Assembly (NCBI RefSeq): GCF_025960985.1
Contig: NZ_JAOQMX010000019.1
Coordinates: forward strand, 1 to 64,000
Direction of reading: 5' to 3'
DNA from: Flavobacterium psychraerolatum
GTDB lineage: Bacteria > Bacteroidota > Bacteroidia > Flavobacteriales > Flavobacteriaceae
Length of the DNA: 64,000 bases
Part shown: in pieces, positions 33,134-44,182 of the stretch
Numbering within the stretch: the first letter of the stretch is position 1
How the letters are laid out: each line of letters opens with the position of its first letter
Program-made: the position numbers and the translations under genes
The notes under the pieces: model-generated
What the model was told of the DNA's origin: nothing
Databases searched by the model: none
What the model saw: the letters and a program-made list of their open reading frames with translations, nothing else

Positions 33134-33350
33134 ATCGAAAATTGAGAAGTTTTTAGTTTTATAACTTTAGATTAATATTTTTACTATTTTGTTAACAGAG
33201 AATTCTATGGTGTGATTTATAATTGTAATGATTAAGGTTATGGGTGTAGAATGGAAATTTGCTTTATTGTGTTTATTTATTAATTCTAATAGTAAAACTA
33301 TAAATTTATTTAATTATTTTTCCGTTTTCATTAAAACAAGTAATATAGAT

Positions 33351-34382
33351 ATGCAAGATAACGAACGAATTTTTAGTGATTTTGAGAATGTAGACAAATT
33401 TAAAAGAGAAGTTCTCAATCCAATTCTGCCAAAAGCTAAATTTTCTAGCTGCTTTATGCAATCAACTCCGGGAGTACCTGCAGATGATTTTAGTGGACAA
33501 CTATCTCCGATACATTTACTAAAAGGAAGTGTTTATGAGTACAAAGGAGATAACAGCTTTATACATTACTCTTCGTTATTTGGTTTAAAAGCTATTTTAG
33601 AATCTGGTTTTTTAAGAATGTCTGAATTTGGAAATCTCATGGATAAAAAAGAATTGAATTTTGCTTCAACTATTTTTGAAGATAATAACTCATTATTCAG
33701 AATCGATGAAGATACAATTACAGTGTTAAAAGAAAATATATTTTGTTTATCCTTATGCGAGTCAAATGAAGAAACAAAAAGAAATGACTTTATGTGGGAA
33801 GTATACGGAGATAAAGGCAAAGGAGCGATTATAGAATTGAAGTTGACAAAAAAAGATCCCGAATTTTTCATACAAGGAAAAGTCCTTTATGGAAATGAAA
33901 AACTAAACTCCATTAGGGAAATCAAGAATCTTACTGAGAAATTTGCAGCAGAAAACAATAATTTCATTCCTAATAATTTTGCTGAATTTTTAATTGAACT
34001 ACAAGCTTTTCATAAATCTAAAAGATATTCCATTGAGAATGAAGTGCGATTCTTAATGAAGGAAAATAAACAACAATATGATGAGCATAAACTGGAAACA
34101 ATTTATAGAGACATTAATTCAAATCAAGAAGTGAAATATTTCAACAAATTATTTTTAAAAGGAAGACATCCTTATTTAAATTCTGACCAAACAAAAAACA
34201 ATAGGAAAGTATTAGATGAATTTCCGCAAGTTGAAATTAAAAGAGTTATTCTGGGGTTTAATATCTCCATTGAAAACAAGGTTGATATTTATACTTTATT
34301 AAACAAAATAAAAGTGCAACACAACTACGATTTTGAAATTAGCCAAATTAACGATGATAAGGAAATCTTCCCAATGAGATAA
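33351..34382 (+). CDS. DUF2971 family protein
   Basis: The protein has 343 residues from the ATG at 33351 (MQDNERIFSDF). An earlier in-frame ATG at 33228 would add 41 residues rich in Phe/Leu/Asn that look like an untranslated leader, so I prefer the later one, with some doubt. The core (about 85-250: FIHYSSLFGLKAILESGFLR, NIFCLSLCESNEETKRNDFM, WEVYGDKGKGAIIEL) matches DUF2971 (PF11185). DUF2971 proteins have no proven activity; from memory they recur among accessory and defence-associated genes. Single gene, more AT-rich than its neighbours. A partial repeat copy follows 29 nt downstream. Confidence 0.8.
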   Translation: MQDNERIFSDFENVDKFKREVLNPILPKAKFSSCFMQSTPGVPADDFSGQLSPIHLLKGSVYEYKGDNSFIHYSSLFGLKAILESGFLRMSEFGNLMDKKELNFASTIFEDNNSLFRIDEDTITVLKENIFCLSLCESNEETKRNDFMWEVYGDKGKGAIIELKLTKKDPEFFIQGKVLYGNEKLNSIREIKNLTEKFAAENNNFIPNNFAEFLIELQAFHKSKRYSIENEVRFLMKENKQQYDEHKLETIYRDINSNQEVKYFNKLFLKGRHPYLNSDQTKNNRKVLDEFPQVEIKRVILGFNISIENKVDIYTLLNKIKVQHNYDFEISQINDDKEIFPMR

Positions 34383-34601: not shown

Positions 34602-36299
34602 ATGGCACTATCAGAACAAGAAATCATTCGAAGAGAGAAACTTCAAGCCCTACGCAACCTAGGAATCAATCCTTATCCTGCGAACCTTTTTCCTGTAAAT
34701 CACACTTCGAAGCAGGTGAAAGAATCGTTTGAAGAAGGTAAGAAGGTCATTGTTGCTGGACGTTTGATGAGTGTACGTGATCAAGGTAAAGCGTGTTTTG
34801 CCGAGTTGCAAGACAGCGAAGGCCGTATTCAATTGTATGTGAACCGTGATGTTTTGTGTACGGGTGATGATAAAACGCTTTACAACCAAGTGTTTAAAAA
34901 ATTGACCGATTTGGGTGATTTTATTGGTATTGAAGGGGAATTGTTTACTACCAAAGTAGGTGCGCAATGTATTCGCGTGGATGGTTTTACGTTTTTGAGT
35001 AAAACGTTACGTCCGTTGCCTTTGCCAAAAGTAGATGAGGACGGAAAAGTACACGATGCTTTTAACGACGCCGAATTGCGTTACCGCATGCGTTATGTGG
35101 ATTTGACGGTGAACCAAAACGTAAAAGAAACTTTTGTAAAACGTACTAAGTTGTTTAATGCGATGCGTGGTTACTTTAACGACGCTGGATATTTGGAGGT
35201 TGAAACTCCCGTTTTACAATCCATCCCTGGTGGTGCTGCGGCGCGTCCGTTTATTACGCACCACAATTCGCTGGACATGCCGTTGTACATGCGTATTGCG
35301 AATGAGTTGTATTTAAAAAGATTAATTGTTGGTGGATTTGATGGAGTGTATGAGTTTTCGAAAAACTTCAGAAACGAAGGAATGGACCGTACGCACAATC
35401 CTGAATTTACCGCTATGGAAATATATGTAGCCTACAAAGACTACAACTGGATGATGGATTTTACAGAGAAATTGTTGGAGCATTGCGCTATTGGCGTAAA
35501 TGGTACTAGCGAAGCGACTTTTGGTGAACACCAAATTAGTTTTAAAGCGCCGTATGCTCGTCTGACGATGACCGATTCTATCAAACATTTTACTGGTTTT
35601 GATATCTCTGGTAAAAACGAACAAGAATTATTCGATGCTGCTCGTGGTATGGGAATTGACGTTGATAACACCATGGGTAAAGGAAAATTGATAGATGAAA
35701 TTTTTGGAGCAAAATGTGAAGGAAATTATATTCAGCCAACTTTCATCACCGATTATCCCAAAGAAATGTCACCGCTTTGTAAAGAGCACCGTGACAATCC
35801 TGAGTTGACAGAGCGTTTTGAATTGATGGTTTGTGGTAAAGAGGTTGCGAATGCGTACTCTGAACTAAATGACCCAATTGATCAAAGAGAGCGTTTTGAA
35901 GACCAAATGCGTCTGGCTGCAAAAGGTGATGATGAAGCAACAGGAATTATTGACGAGGATTTCCTAAGAGCATTGGAATACGGAATGCCGCCAACATCTG
36001 GATTGGGAATTGGAATGGACCGTTTGATGATGTTCTTGACTAATAATGCTTCGATTCAGGAAGTATTGTTGTTTCCACAAATGAGACCAGAGAAAAAACA
36101 AGTGCAACTAGAGGAAGATGAGAAATTGATTGTTTCTATTTTGCAAGCCAATGAAAACCAAATGGAATTTGGTTTACTGAAAATCAAATCGGAATTGAGC
36201 GGTAAAAAATGGGACAAAGCCATGAAAAACCTATCAGCTTTAGGAATGACAGAAGTTGTTGTTGAAGGTGATGTGAAGGCTTGTAGATTGAAGGAGTAA
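34602..36299 (+). CDS. lysS: Lysyl-tRNA synthetase, class II
   Basis: The protein has 565 residues. The OB-fold anticodon-binding domain (about 45-150: VIVAGRLMSVRDQGKACFAE, LQDSEGRIQLYV) precedes the class II catalytic core. Motif 2 is YEFSKNFRNEGMDRTHNPEF, with TAMEIYVAYKDY after it, and motif 3 is GLGIGMDRLMMFLTN. A C-terminal ~60-residue extension is typical of Flavobacteriia. Charges tRNA-Lys. Codon choice is GC-richer than its neighbours, as expected for a highly expressed gene. Confidence 0.97.
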   Translation: MALSEQEIIRREKLQALRNLGINPYPANLFPVNHTSKQVKESFEEGKKVIVAGRLMSVRDQGKACFAELQDSEGRIQLYVNRDVLCTGDDKTLYNQVFKKLTDLGDFIGIEGELFTTKVGAQCIRVDGFTFLSKTLRPLPLPKVDEDGKVHDAFNDAELRYRMRYVDLTVNQNVKETFVKRTKLFNAMRGYFNDAGYLEVETPVLQSIPGGAAARPFITHHNSLDMPLYMRIANELYLKRLIVGGFDGVYEFSKNFRNEGMDRTHNPEFTAMEIYVAYKDYNWMMDFTEKLLEHCAIGVNGTSEATFGEHQISFKAPYARLTMTDSIKHFTGFDISGKNEQELFDAARGMGIDVDNTMGKGKLIDEIFGAKCEGNYIQPTFITDYPKEMSPLCKEHRDNPELTERFELMVCGKEVANAYSELNDPIDQRERFEDQMRLAAKGDDEATGIIDEDFLRALEYGMPPTSGLGIGMDRLMMFLTNNASIQEVLLFPQMRPEKKQVQLEEDEKLIVSILQANENQMEFGLLKIKSELSGKKWDKAMKNLSALGMTEVVVEGDVKACRLKE

Positions 36300-36475
36300 A
36301 AATTTTTAAAAATATTCATTTAATCAGTTTGATACTAACATTGATAACTGGTTGTGATTGTAGTTTGTACGTAAAATTGGGCTTAGGCATTTTGTATGAT
36401 TGTATTATAACTTGTTACTTTAAAAACTCAAACCTTATGATAAAAATAAAAAATGGCGTGTTTAAAACTTTGACT

Positions 36476-36551
36476 GCGTGAGCACAATTTTATTACAAAT
36501 TACATCATAATGAATAGCTCAAAGTTTAGGGTTCGAATCCCTACTCACGCG
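36476..36551 (+). tRNA. tRNA-like relic (T-arm and acceptor stem only)
   Basis: GCGTGAG (36476-36482) pairs with CTCACGC (36544-36550). TAGGG/TTCGAAT/CCCTA (36527-36543) is a perfect T-arm directly before the 3' acceptor strand, and the total is 76 nt including the discriminator, exactly tRNA length. The interior (36483-36526) does not fold into a D-arm or anticodon arm and I cannot assign an anticodon. The following CAA is not CCA. I read it as a degenerate tRNA or the 3' tRNA end left as an attachment site. GCGTGAG may partly be chance or match the dispersed-repeat end. Confidence 0.4.
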
Positions 36552-36557
36552 CAATAG

Positions 36558-36588
36558 AAAAGGAACTTCGTAATGGAGTTCCTTTTTT
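36558..36588 (+). terminator. Intrinsic terminator after the tRNA-like relic
   Basis: AAAAGGAACT pairs with AGTTCCTTTT; a T tract follows. The same AGGAACTTC stem recurs at 38462 and 43432. Confidence 0.7.
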
Positions 36589-36624
36589 GGAATTAAATCT
36601 TAATTATTTTCATATTTTTGAAGA

Positions 36625-37953
36625 ATGGAAAGAGCAAAACTTATTGTTAAAAATTTTGGACCTCTAAAGGATATAGATATTGAAGTTAGAGAAATGGTTA
36701 CTTTTATTGGAGCTCAAGCTTCGGGTAAAAGTACATTAGCTAAATTGCTTTCTATATTGGAAGATGAAGAATTTAGAAGCAATCATAATTTAGACTTCAA
36801 GTCAGAGTTAAAAAAATATAACATTTTAAGTTATTTAAATAACAACACTTATATAAAATATGACGTATTAAATATTAAGATAAGTAAATTTAGTTTTGAA
36901 TACAAAAATGATGATTATTCAAAAAATTCTATTCTACAAATACTTTCTGCAATAAAAAAAGGAAAAATCCAAGAAGATAAAATTGCAGAAGGTACAGAAG
37001 CATTAAAAGAACTAATAGCATTATATATCAATACTTATGATCTAATTGGAAAAGTTGAATTCTATGAAATATTTACTACCCATATACAAAAAGTAAAATT
37101 TGAAGTTGATTTTTTTGAAAAGCGAATTAATAAAATTGAACTTCAGAAAAATGATATTGAATTATTAATCGAAATTTCAGAAAAAGAGAAAATACTTGAA
37201 AATTACTTTACACTTTTAAATCAAATTGTAAATTGTTTTCCTAGTATATTTCAATTTGATTCAATATATATTCCTTCAGAACGAAATTTTCTTCATTTAA
37301 TAGCTGAAAATGCTCTAGGACTGATTAATAATAATATTCAAATACCTAAACATATATTAAACGCTGGTCAGGAATACGAAAAAGCAATCCAAACTGTAAA
37401 AGAATTACCCCTTAGTATTATTGATAAAAATTACACATACAAAAGAGAAGGAAAAACTTCTTACATCTATCACAATGAAACTGAAAAAGTTGATTTATTA
37501 GAATCTGCGTCGGGATTACAAAGTATAATTCCAATTTTACTTTTAGTTGAGTATTCGAAATCATTGAAAGAAAAATATAATTTCAATTTCGTGGTTGAAG
37601 AACCTGAACTTAATTTGTACCCAAAAGCACAACACGAATTAATCAAGTATTTGGTGAAAAACTGTTTATTTGAAAGAAAGAATTTAATTCTTACCACGCA
37701 TAGTCCGTTTGTTTTGGCATCTATCAATAATTTGTTATTGGCTTTTGATAAAGGTAAAATGAATCCAAAAGAAGTCAATAAAATTATCAAGAAAGAATCT
37801 TGGCTTGACCCAAAAAATTTCATTGCTTATGAATTGAAAAACGGTAAAGCAAAGAAAATAATGGATGATAAATTAGGGCAAATCAAGGAGAATATGATTG
37901 ATGGTGTATCGGATGCTTTTGCTGATGAATTTGATAAATTGTTGGATTTATGA
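36625..37953 (+). CDS. AAA-family ATPase (AbiEii/OLD/SMC-like), first gene of a putative defence pair
   Basis: The protein has 442 residues. It opens AKLIVKNFGPLKDIDIEVRE with Walker A GAQASGKST at 29-37. A helical insertion (about 60-240) separates this from the second half of the ATPase. EEPELNLYPKAQHELIKYL (near 325) provides the Walker B acid pair and ILTTHSPFVLA (near 355) the H-loop, as in the AAA_15/AAA_21 ATPases of OLD, PARIS AriA and Septu PtuA. No Toprim domain follows in the same protein. It is translationally coupled (ATGA at 37950) to a nuclease-like gene and sits next to a tRNA relic. Confidence 0.85.
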   Translation: MERAKLIVKNFGPLKDIDIEVREMVTFIGAQASGKSTLAKLLSILEDEEFRSNHNLDFKSELKKYNILSYLNNNTYIKYDVLNIKISKFSFEYKNDDYSKNSILQILSAIKKGKIQEDKIAEGTEALKELIALYINTYDLIGKVEFYEIFTTHIQKVKFEVDFFEKRINKIELQKNDIELLIEISEKEKILENYFTLLNQIVNCFPSIFQFDSIYIPSERNFLHLIAENALGLINNNIQIPKHILNAGQEYEKAIQTVKELPLSIIDKNYTYKREGKTSYIYHNETEKVDLLESASGLQSIIPILLLVEYSKSLKEKYNFNFVVEEPELNLYPKAQHELIKYLVKNCLFERKNLILTTHSPFVLASINNLLLAFDKGKMNPKEVNKIIKKESWLDPKNFIAYELKNGKAKKIMDDKLGQIKENMIDGVSDAFADEFDKLLDL

Positions 37954-38456
37954 GTCATGAAGAACTATTAGCAAATTTTCCTAATCTAGAAAAAGGTATT
38001 TGTTACAAAATATTAGAAGAAGCAACTTATTATTTGGAAGAAGTTAAGGAGTCAACTGTTACTTTCAAAACTGAAACTGACTACTGGAATCTTTGCATAG
38101 AAAATAACTTATTAAAGACAATTTTATTATTAGAAAATGAATTCTCAATAATGAAAAATGAAACTTCAAAAAAATGTGATTGGGTTTTATATGAAGATAA
38201 AAAAATATTTTTTGTTGAATCAAAAGATGTCAAACCACGAAGTAGAAACAAGGAAAGGAAAGATGCCGTAAAACAATTGATAGCCACTATAGAGTATTAT
38301 AATTCTAAAATTGATTTAAGTACTTTTACAATTTCATCTCAGATTTGCTTCAAATCTAACTCTCGCACTATTAAAACTGGGGATCAAGCTAGAAAAGTAT
38401 TATTTAAAAAATACAATTCTGATTTTAATGAAAGTAATTTCATTTCTTTTGAATAA
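37950..38456 (+). CDS. Small PD-(D/E)xK-like protein, partner of the AAA ATPase
   Basis: The protein has 168 residues and is not a family I recognise. CDWVLYEDKKIFFVESKDVK carries Asp77, Glu90 and Lys92 in a D-x12-ExK arrangement across a beta hairpin, the core motif of PD-(D/E)xK nucleases. A downstream helix (KERKDAVKQLIATIEYYNS) fits the following alpha helix. No HNH or Toprim motif. Its start codon overlaps the ATPase stop by 4 nt, so the two proteins are probably made together. The shared terminator follows 6 nt after the stop. Nuclease activity is inferred. Confidence 0.65.
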   Translation: MSHEELLANFPNLEKGICYKILEEATYYLEEVKESTVTFKTETDYWNLCIENNLLKTILLLENEFSIMKNETSKKCDWVLYEDKKIFFVESKDVKPRSRNKERKDAVKQLIATIEYYNSKIDLSTFTISSQICFKSNSRTIKTGDQARKVLFKKYNSDFNESNFISFE

Positions 38457-38461
38457 TGTGG

Positions 38462-38491
38462 AAAGGAACTTCTTGTTGAAGTTCCTTTTTT
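38462..38491 (+). terminator. Terminator of the ATPase/nuclease-like pair
   Basis: AAAGGAACTTC pairs with GAAGTTCCTTT across loop TTGTT, followed by T residues. It closely resembles the hairpin just before the pair (36558). Confidence 0.8.
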
Positions 38492-38619
38492 TACTTTAAA
38501 CAATGAGCCAACCCTTTCAAAAACCCTAATTAAAACCTAACCAAATCACAAACTCTTCTTAATGAGCGAAGTTTATTAGACATTCTGTCGTCTAACTAGT
38601 AAATGAAAAATATTCAATT

Positions 38620-39084
38620 ATGAAAAAATTATTTACAACAGCCCTGATTGCTCTTATTACAATCACTGGCTTCGCACAAGAAAAGCAAAATGCTCAATGT
38701 AGAAACGAACATCATGGTATGGAGAATTTTACTCCTGAACAGCGCCAAGAGCTGATGCTAAAAAAAATGACACTGGAGCTTGATTTGAATGCATCGCAAC
38801 AAAAAGAAATGAGTAAAATCGTTGGAGAGCAGATGGCAAAAAGAGAGGCCTTTATGAAAGACCATAAGGCTAAAACAGAAAAACCTAGCAATGACGAAAT
38901 GTTTGCCATGAAAAGTAAAATGCTAGACGAACAAATTGCAATGAAAGCAAGAGTTAAAAAAATCTTGTCTACAGAACAATTTTCGAAATGGGAAAAGATA
39001 AGCCACCATCACCACAATGGGATGAAAAAGCACCATTCTGATAAAAGAAAAGGAGATAAAGATAAGGAAGCAGAAACAAAATAA
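38620..39084 (+). CDS. Secreted His-rich Spy/CpxP-like protein
   Basis: The protein has 154 residues. The Sec signal peptide ends TGFAQ (about 1-19). The mature part is helical (FTPEQRQELMLKKMTLEL, LNASQQKEMSKIV), with LTxxQ-like phrasing and a His-rich, Lys-rich tail (ISHHHHNGMKKHH). The pattern matches periplasmic Spy/LTXXQ proteins and suggests metal binding, perhaps copper or zinc. Single gene. A second Spy-like protein sits in the ECF operon at 31.7 kb. Confidence 0.75.
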   Translation: MKKLFTTALIALITITGFAQEKQNAQCRNEHHGMENFTPEQRQELMLKKMTLELDLNASQQKEMSKIVGEQMAKREAFMKDHKAKTEKPSNDEMFAMKSKMLDEQIAMKARVKKILSTEQFSKWEKISHHHHNGMKKHHSDKRKGDKDKEAETK

Positions 39085-43431: not shown

Positions 43432-43462
43432 AAGGAACTTCATCACGAAGTTCCTTTTTTTT
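43432..43462 (+). terminator. Intrinsic terminator after the glycoside hydrolase
   Basis: AAGGAACTTC pairs with GAAGTTCCTT, followed by nine T residues. Third copy of the AGGAACTTC-type hairpin in the window. Confidence 0.8.
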
Positions 43463-43787: not shown

Positions 43788-44182
43788 TTACAAAGAGTAT
43801 AGCGGCGGTCCTACAATTACATCTCCTGTTTTGGCATCAAGATAACCTTCATCATAAGGGCAATGAATAATTCCTGTTCCTGGCTTGTAAAATATAGAAC
43901 AAGAAAAATATGTACATTTTTTGTTCATAGGCTTTGAATTTACCTGTTTTTAGACGAATAAAATATAAGGAACCATACCTCCTTCGATTACAAAACCACG
44001 AGTTCCTCCTGAAAGTACATCGCCTTTTTTGCATATAAAATGTTCTCCCGCAACTTCTTCATTTGATGTTAAATAAACTTTGGCAGCAACTAATCTACTT
44101 CCTGTCATTAATCCTTCAAAGAATAAGATCAATAATTATGTAAAATCACGACGACTTATTTTTGTTGCTTGTTATTTTTCAT
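43788..44182 (-). pseudogene. Tat-signal Rieske [2Fe-2S] protein, frameshifted
   Basis: Pieces of one gene appear in three frames. MKNNKQQKISRRDFT at the start has a twin-arginine motif (SRRDF), then GSRLVAAKVYLTSNEEVAGE, ...FVIEGGMVPYILF, then RLKTGKFKAYEQK, then CTYFSCSIFYKPGTG and IIHCPYDEGYLDAKTG with DVIVGPP to the stop at 43788-43790. An intact Rieske protein would show CTHxxC and CPCHxG. Here CTYFSC and CPYDEG replace His/Cys ligands by Tyr, Tyr and Asp. At least two frameshifts (one A too many before CTYFSC) and an in-frame TAA near the Tat motif are visible. Clearly dead. Confidence 0.85.

Follow-up and report, generated by a model that had tools for sequence, protein, structure and literature searches.

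Predicted PDC-M29 defence pair behind lysS in Flavobacterium: a candidate ATPase and PD-(D/E)xK-type nuclease with evidence for exchange of the nuclease gene between species

PARIS, Septu and OLD-type systems combine an ABC ATPase with a nuclease (reviewed in PMC10568477). In PARIS (AriA/AriB), an AAA_15 ATPase and a separate small nuclease are encoded by a two-gene operon, and the Toprim effector is described as cleaving tRNA (PMC12409363). Septu (PtuA/PtuB) also consists of an ATPase and a small nuclease, in this case the HNH nuclease PtuB, OLD nucleases and Gabija share the ABC ATPase head, and AbiL (AbiLi/AbiLii, RloA/RloB) joins an AAA_21 ATPase to an RloB partner. A further two-gene arrangement, PDC-M29 (PDC-M29A and PDC-M29B), is listed in PADLOC-DB 2.0.0. 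According to a 2026 survey, the PDCs of PADLOC are candidates obtained by 'guilt by embedding' and are mostly unvalidated (PMC12988326), and a literature search for PDC-M29 found neither a naming paper nor an experimental validation.

The window analyzed here is a stretch of 64,000 nucleotides of contig NZ_JAOQMX010000019.1 from Flavobacterium psychraerolatum. A two-gene pair in it had been proposed, from the letters alone, to consist of an ATPase and a PD-(D/E)xK-like protein, and family matches and conserved motifs support that proposal:
36625..37953, + strand: gene A, ABC/AAA_15 ATPase of the PDC-M29A family (442 aa; AAA_15 1.4e-18, PDC-M29A 1.1e-37)
37950..38456, + strand: gene B, predicted small PD-(D/E)xK-type nuclease of the PDC-M29B family (168 aa; PDC-M29B 1.7e-10)

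Gene B overlaps gene A by the 4 nt ATGA, as the sequence-only reading had described. In PADLOC, the best match of gene A among 58 families is PDC-M29A, which outscores AriA (1.4e-22) by far, and the best match of gene B is PDC-M29B. As both proteins match components of PDC-M29 best, the pair is already catalogued as a candidate, and the suggestion that it might be a variant not yet described fails. By these matches the window pair is an intact member, from the Flavobacterium lineage, of the candidate defence system PDC-M29. It has the same two-gene arrangement, although its gene B product is a distant member of the family, whereas the B protein of locus L122, from the class genomes, reaches 2e-63. 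The pair resembles PARIS in its organization, but the B protein is PD-(D/E)xK-like and not of the Toprim/DUF4435 type. Similarly, the A protein matches PtuA (5.5e-13), but B gives no HNH match, and A weakly matches GajA and OLD-family proteins, but it shows no match to a fused Toprim domain, and a helicase partner is absent from the window.

The ATPase motifs read previously from gene A were all recovered, namely Walker A (GAQASGKST, residues 29-37), EEPELNLYP (325-333) and the H-loop TTHSPF (357-362), and the AAA_15 match at 1.4e-18 argues that they are not random. Matches to Pfam were obtained for ATPase domains only (AAA_15 and AAA_21), no Toprim domain was matched, and about 80 residues follow the H-loop up to the C-terminus. 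Across nine relatives Walker A including its lysine, SGLQS (SGxQS), EEPELNL and TTHSP are invariant or nearly so, and by sequence gene A encodes an intact ABC/AAA_15 ATPase. A sequence search of the PDB returned weak ATPase relatives only, including the OLD-family structure 6p74, and an AlphaFold2 model based on a two-sequence alignment (window and L001) had a mean pLDDT of 32. One part of the protein departs strongly from this conservation:
36865..37224, + strand: residues 81-200 of A, hypervariable and a candidate region for phage sensing (mean pairwise identity 13-30%)

On its flanks, identity rises up to 97-100%, with 96-97% in the N-terminal 40 residues and 100% in the Walker B region, and the dip over residues 81-200 is also visible in identity at the DNA level. 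We infer that this segment may be the sensing part of A.

For gene B, the D-x12-ExK motif noticed earlier was confirmed as D77-x12-E90-x-K92. A set of 29 homologues from Bacteroidota was assembled, in all of which a homologue of A is adjacent, the exception being L133, which yielded no intact A frame. C76, D or E77 and E90 occur in 29/29 of them, K92 in 28/29 (Q replaces K in the L138 homologue) and Q109 in 27/29:
38175..38276, + strand: catalytic core predicted for B (residues C76, D77, E90, K92, Q109; conservation in 29 homologues)

The retention of D/E77, E90 and K92 in 28-29 of 29 diverse homologues indicates that the motif is non-random, and D...ExK...Q is, by sequence, the pattern of the PD-(D/E)xK superfamily. 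Cys76 (38175-38177), right before the catalytic acid, is present in all 29 homologues, even where D is changed to E.

Gene B had no match above any Pfam cut-off, its sub-threshold match being to HSDR_N_2 (0.011), and no Toprim, DUF4435 or HNH match was found, in agreement with what had been read from the sequence. NERD and HSDR_N_2, both members of the PD-(D/E)xK superfamily, were the commonest weak matches when 13 B homologues were scanned singly against Pfam. A profile of the 29 B sequences and one of HSDR_N_2, derived from 30 related genomes, were compared by HHalign, with a probability of 84% and a score of 36; D77 was placed on D and ExK on ExK. With majority columns the score was 32, well above the controls (no more than 17 with the columns shuffled 40 times, and 16 with the profile reversed), and the match to NERD was weaker (6-11%). 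The AlphaFold2 model of B, again from the two-sequence alignment of window and L001, reached a pLDDT of only 41 and is, at most, compatible with this fold in its order of strands and helices. A PDB sequence search with gene B gave no match; a hit of the B profile to PDB 9m1w (6e-4), over 48 residues of a prenyltransferase, was judged to be due to chance. Thus, sequence comparisons support gene B as a PD-(D/E)xK-type nuclease.

The pair lies between two genes that had been named as the boundaries of the cargo:
34602..36299, + strand: lysS, lysyl-tRNA synthetase, fixed left boundary of the slot (open reading frame)
38620..39084, + strand: Spy-like gene, which forms the boundary on the right in this genome (open reading frame; directly adjoins lysS in cargo-free species)

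The boundaries are supported by comparison, since lysS and the Spy-like gene have nothing between them in G025, G073 and others, and the region is variable and gene-free in some species. Using lysS as anchor, which was found in 149/151 Flavobacterium genomes, the sequence behind it was surveyed in 92 species; it was occupied in 29, and 63 carried none of the modules listed here. PDC-M29 was present in 9/92 species, AbiL in seven (AbiLi 8e-83, AbiLii 2e-22, RloB 3e-28), a ParE-type toxin and/or antitoxin in 15 (in three of them next to AbiL or PDC-M29), and DUF433/DUF5615 in one. Whenever PDC-M29 or AbiL is at lysS, its genes are the first after lysS, and AbiL differs from the window pair in lying on the opposite strand. 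By 'slot' a site frequently used behind lysS is meant, which says nothing on its rank relative to other core genes. The opposite flank of lysS encodes a DUF2971 protein at 33228-34382 (+), with a match (3.7e-5) above the Pfam cut-off and a weak match to PDC-S31 (1e-6). Homologues occur in only 2/121 genus genomes, this one included, and lysS therefore has variable genes on both flanks.

Similar terminators on both sides of the pair had been reported by the sequence-only reading, and hairpins were indeed found at these places, together with a promoter-like box:
36558..36588, + strand: hairpin resembling a terminator, located between lysS and gene A (folding energy -17.5 kcal/mol, z -5.3)
38458..38494, + strand: hairpin resembling a terminator, downstream of gene B (folding energy -16.4 kcal/mol, z -4.5)
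36613..36620, + strand: TAnnTTTG box directly upstream of the gene A start codon, of the -7 type of flavobacterial promoters (6/6 aligned lysS-linked pairs)

The idea that the hairpins are the matched ends of an element did not hold. A third hairpin of the same type, GGAACTTC, is located at 43432-43456, so that this is a common type of terminator here and not a matched pair of element ends. In all 6 aligned lysS-linked pairs, lysS is followed by the hairpin, then by the TAnnTTTG box and then by the ATG of A. This conserved order suggests that the pair has its own promoter, the box being a putative promoter element. At 43850-44132 (-), broken frames resemble a SRRDFAKFLTLVSGGLMVGSGLVAAKAYL-type (Rieske/TAT) protein, which is intact in L050 (12759-13268), and this stretch is pseudogene-like.

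A tRNA-like 3' end had also been noticed just upstream of the pair, and it is present:
36476..36551, + strand: tRNA-like relic with acceptor and T-arm intact and D and anticodon arms lost (Rfam tRNA 21.7 bits)

Its acceptor stem pairs perfectly over 7 bp and its T-arm over 5 bp (fold z -3.1). ARAGORN found no tRNA in it and the Rfam score is below the cut-off of 29 bits, so the piece is degenerate. Ending 73 bp upstream of A, it could be taken to mean that the pair was carried passively by an integrated element that targeted a tRNA and has since lost its remaining parts. This origin is highly improbable and largely refuted. The relic and its surroundings are about 85% identical in G031, where AbiL follows, and the relic is absent from the five other aligned lysS-linked pairs; in the eight other lysS-linked pairs, A begins 83-89 bp after lysS. 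No intact tRNA with the 3' end of the relic was found in the genome (at most 3 mismatches), no good match to this end apart from G031 in 200 genus genomes, and no exact match in viral contigs. Moreover, no integrase was recognized among the open reading frames at 30-44 kb, and homologues of the pair occupy many non-tRNA sites. The absent source tRNA and the presence of the relic in AbiL-carrying G031 lead us to reject tRNA integration, and from these comparisons we conclude that the relic is independent of the cargo, not an integration mark and without relevance to the pair. Between G031 and the window, the T-arm differs by one compensatory pair and one T-loop change. The noncoding stretch 36300-36590 (+), which runs from the lysS stop and takes in both relic and hairpin, shares about 85% identity with its G031 counterpart and is as conserved as lysS; it could be a small RNA. 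A short open frame at 36287-36481, in the spacer between lysS and the relic, shows 9/4/9 codon-position differences between these two genomes.

Among the lysS-linked pairs, the B proteins fall into three allele groups, I (window, G056, G199, G264), II (G217, G047, G258) and III (G088, G060). Members of one group share 69-85% identity; the value falls to 51-57% for II against III and to only 27-34% for I against either of them, whereas the A proteins of all three groups are 61-75% identical. The trees of A and B are incongruent: the A tree rejects each B group as a clade (AU p 0.00012, 0.00196 and 0.00498), and at least three changes on the A tree are required to explain the split between group I and groups II/III. 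At the DNA level, G258 and G199 are 83-90% identical in the 3' part of A and then 45-54% in B, where G258 is 82-87% identical to G217. The conflict of the trees and the switch of identity at the junction of A and B indicate that B has been exchanged between species as a unit, or cassette, with the break at this junction. As the 3' end of lysS separates two species groups and the A tree mixes them, A too crosses species lines.

These exchanges bear on an alternative in which the pair is a toxin-antitoxin-like or selfish module, the toxic nuclease B being neutralized by A, the pair kept since its loss harms the cell, and defence being a by-product. The tight ATGA coupling, the joint presence of A and B in nearly all fully read loci and the sharing of the lysS slot with ParE-type toxin-antitoxin genes and DUF433/DUF5615, sometimes side by side (G056), would fit such a module. 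However, B alleles are swapped behind diverse A proteins, whereas toxin-antitoxin pairs are usually strictly matched, A, with its full set of catalytic ATPase motifs and its hypervariable segment, has more than an antitoxin would need, and the pair is absent from most of the 92 species and therefore readily lost. We regard this module as an unlikely explanation, if the most serious competitor to defence.

A homologue of A was found in 13/199 related genomes, the close relatives having it directly behind lysS, and in the wider class the family occurs in 16/296 genomes, and these counts, like the survey behind lysS, reveal patchiness. Searches of viral contigs found no relative of A, plasmids gave no match, and phages gave two partial matches, both in short unannotated faecal records. 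Other sites of the pair are behind metG (35 bp), tyrS (29 bp), dnaK (79 and 89 bp) and methylmalonyl-CoA mutase (10 bp), and between sdhA and sdhB in L137 (4115-8438), L138 (5234-9586) and L133 (5312-9778), which belong to three different families. These insertions place the pair inside a core respiratory operon and, with an intact A, are separated from sdhA and sdhB by 3-31 bp; in L133, A is apparently decayed. In L129 (5667-6871) the A homologue lies in two adjacent frames and is apparently broken, and the neighboring B still scores. Aminoacyl-tRNA synthetase genes are involved at 3 of about 22 distinct sites, which is more than expected in a post hoc calculation (P about 5e-4, assuming about 24 synthetases in 3500 genes) and is not to be built on.

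Locations in sdh operons and behind dnaK or aminoacyl-tRNA synthetase genes count against defence, as the pairs could be read as housekeeping partners. One could consider a DNA-repair or genome-maintenance pair with a RecF/Rad50-like ATPase and a nuclease instead of immunity; the copies in such core operons would fit this role, and Rad50-Mre11 and SbcCD are also ABC ATPases with nucleases. Against repair stand the very patchy occurrence, the alternation with AbiL at lysS and the copy inside a type I restriction operon, where the L122 pair is located between hsdS and hsdR; effector swaps and a hypervariable segment fit an arms race better. This role is therefore quite improbable. The search for defence neighbors further revealed that the L061 homologue adjoins a BrxD-like ATPase and a helicase, both read by eye.

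The best explanation, which we consider probable, is that PDC-M29 is an ATPase-gated nuclease defence, and very probably the window pair is an intact defence module catalogued as a candidate. This explanation takes as its base the family membership, motif conservation, patchiness, shared slot, hypervariable segment and effector swap read from the sequences, and its statements on sensing, gating, trigger, substrate and phage protection are drawn by analogy with the ATPase-nuclease systems named at the outset. ATP binding would cause the ABC-type ATPase A to dimerize, and its fast-changing middle domain would detect a phage component. Until triggered, A would keep B, a PD-(D/E)xK nuclease of HsdR-N/NERD type, inactive; triggered B would then cleave nucleic acid, most likely DNA, and phage DNA would be destroyed or the infected cell killed. 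DNA is favored as substrate because HSDR_N_2 belongs to DNA restriction enzymes, and tRNA is the main alternative because the Toprim effector of PARIS cuts tRNA. Recombination between species would place different nuclease alleles behind one ATPase frame in the shared slot behind lysS.

The lysS slot, the hypervariable segment of A and the exchange of B are new here for PDC-M29, and what is chiefly added to the catalogued family is the site behind lysS used by several modules, together with the exchange of the effector. The candidate system becomes testable, as catalytic residues and a possible sensor region can now be named and natural swaps of the effector suggest which parts should be exchangeable. 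Across the genus, defence and toxin-antitoxin modules alternate behind lysS with no visible integrase, which makes this slot a simple hunting ground for new systems. Tentatively, and with somewhat less than even confidence, PDC-M29 of Flavobacterium may be seen as a combinatorial immune module, in which a conserved ATPase frame with a hypervariable sensor segment accepts unrelated-looking nuclease alleles, and in which bacteria reshuffle these alleles through homologous recombination in the slot that the genus uses behind lysS; if so, trigger and effector would evolve independently.
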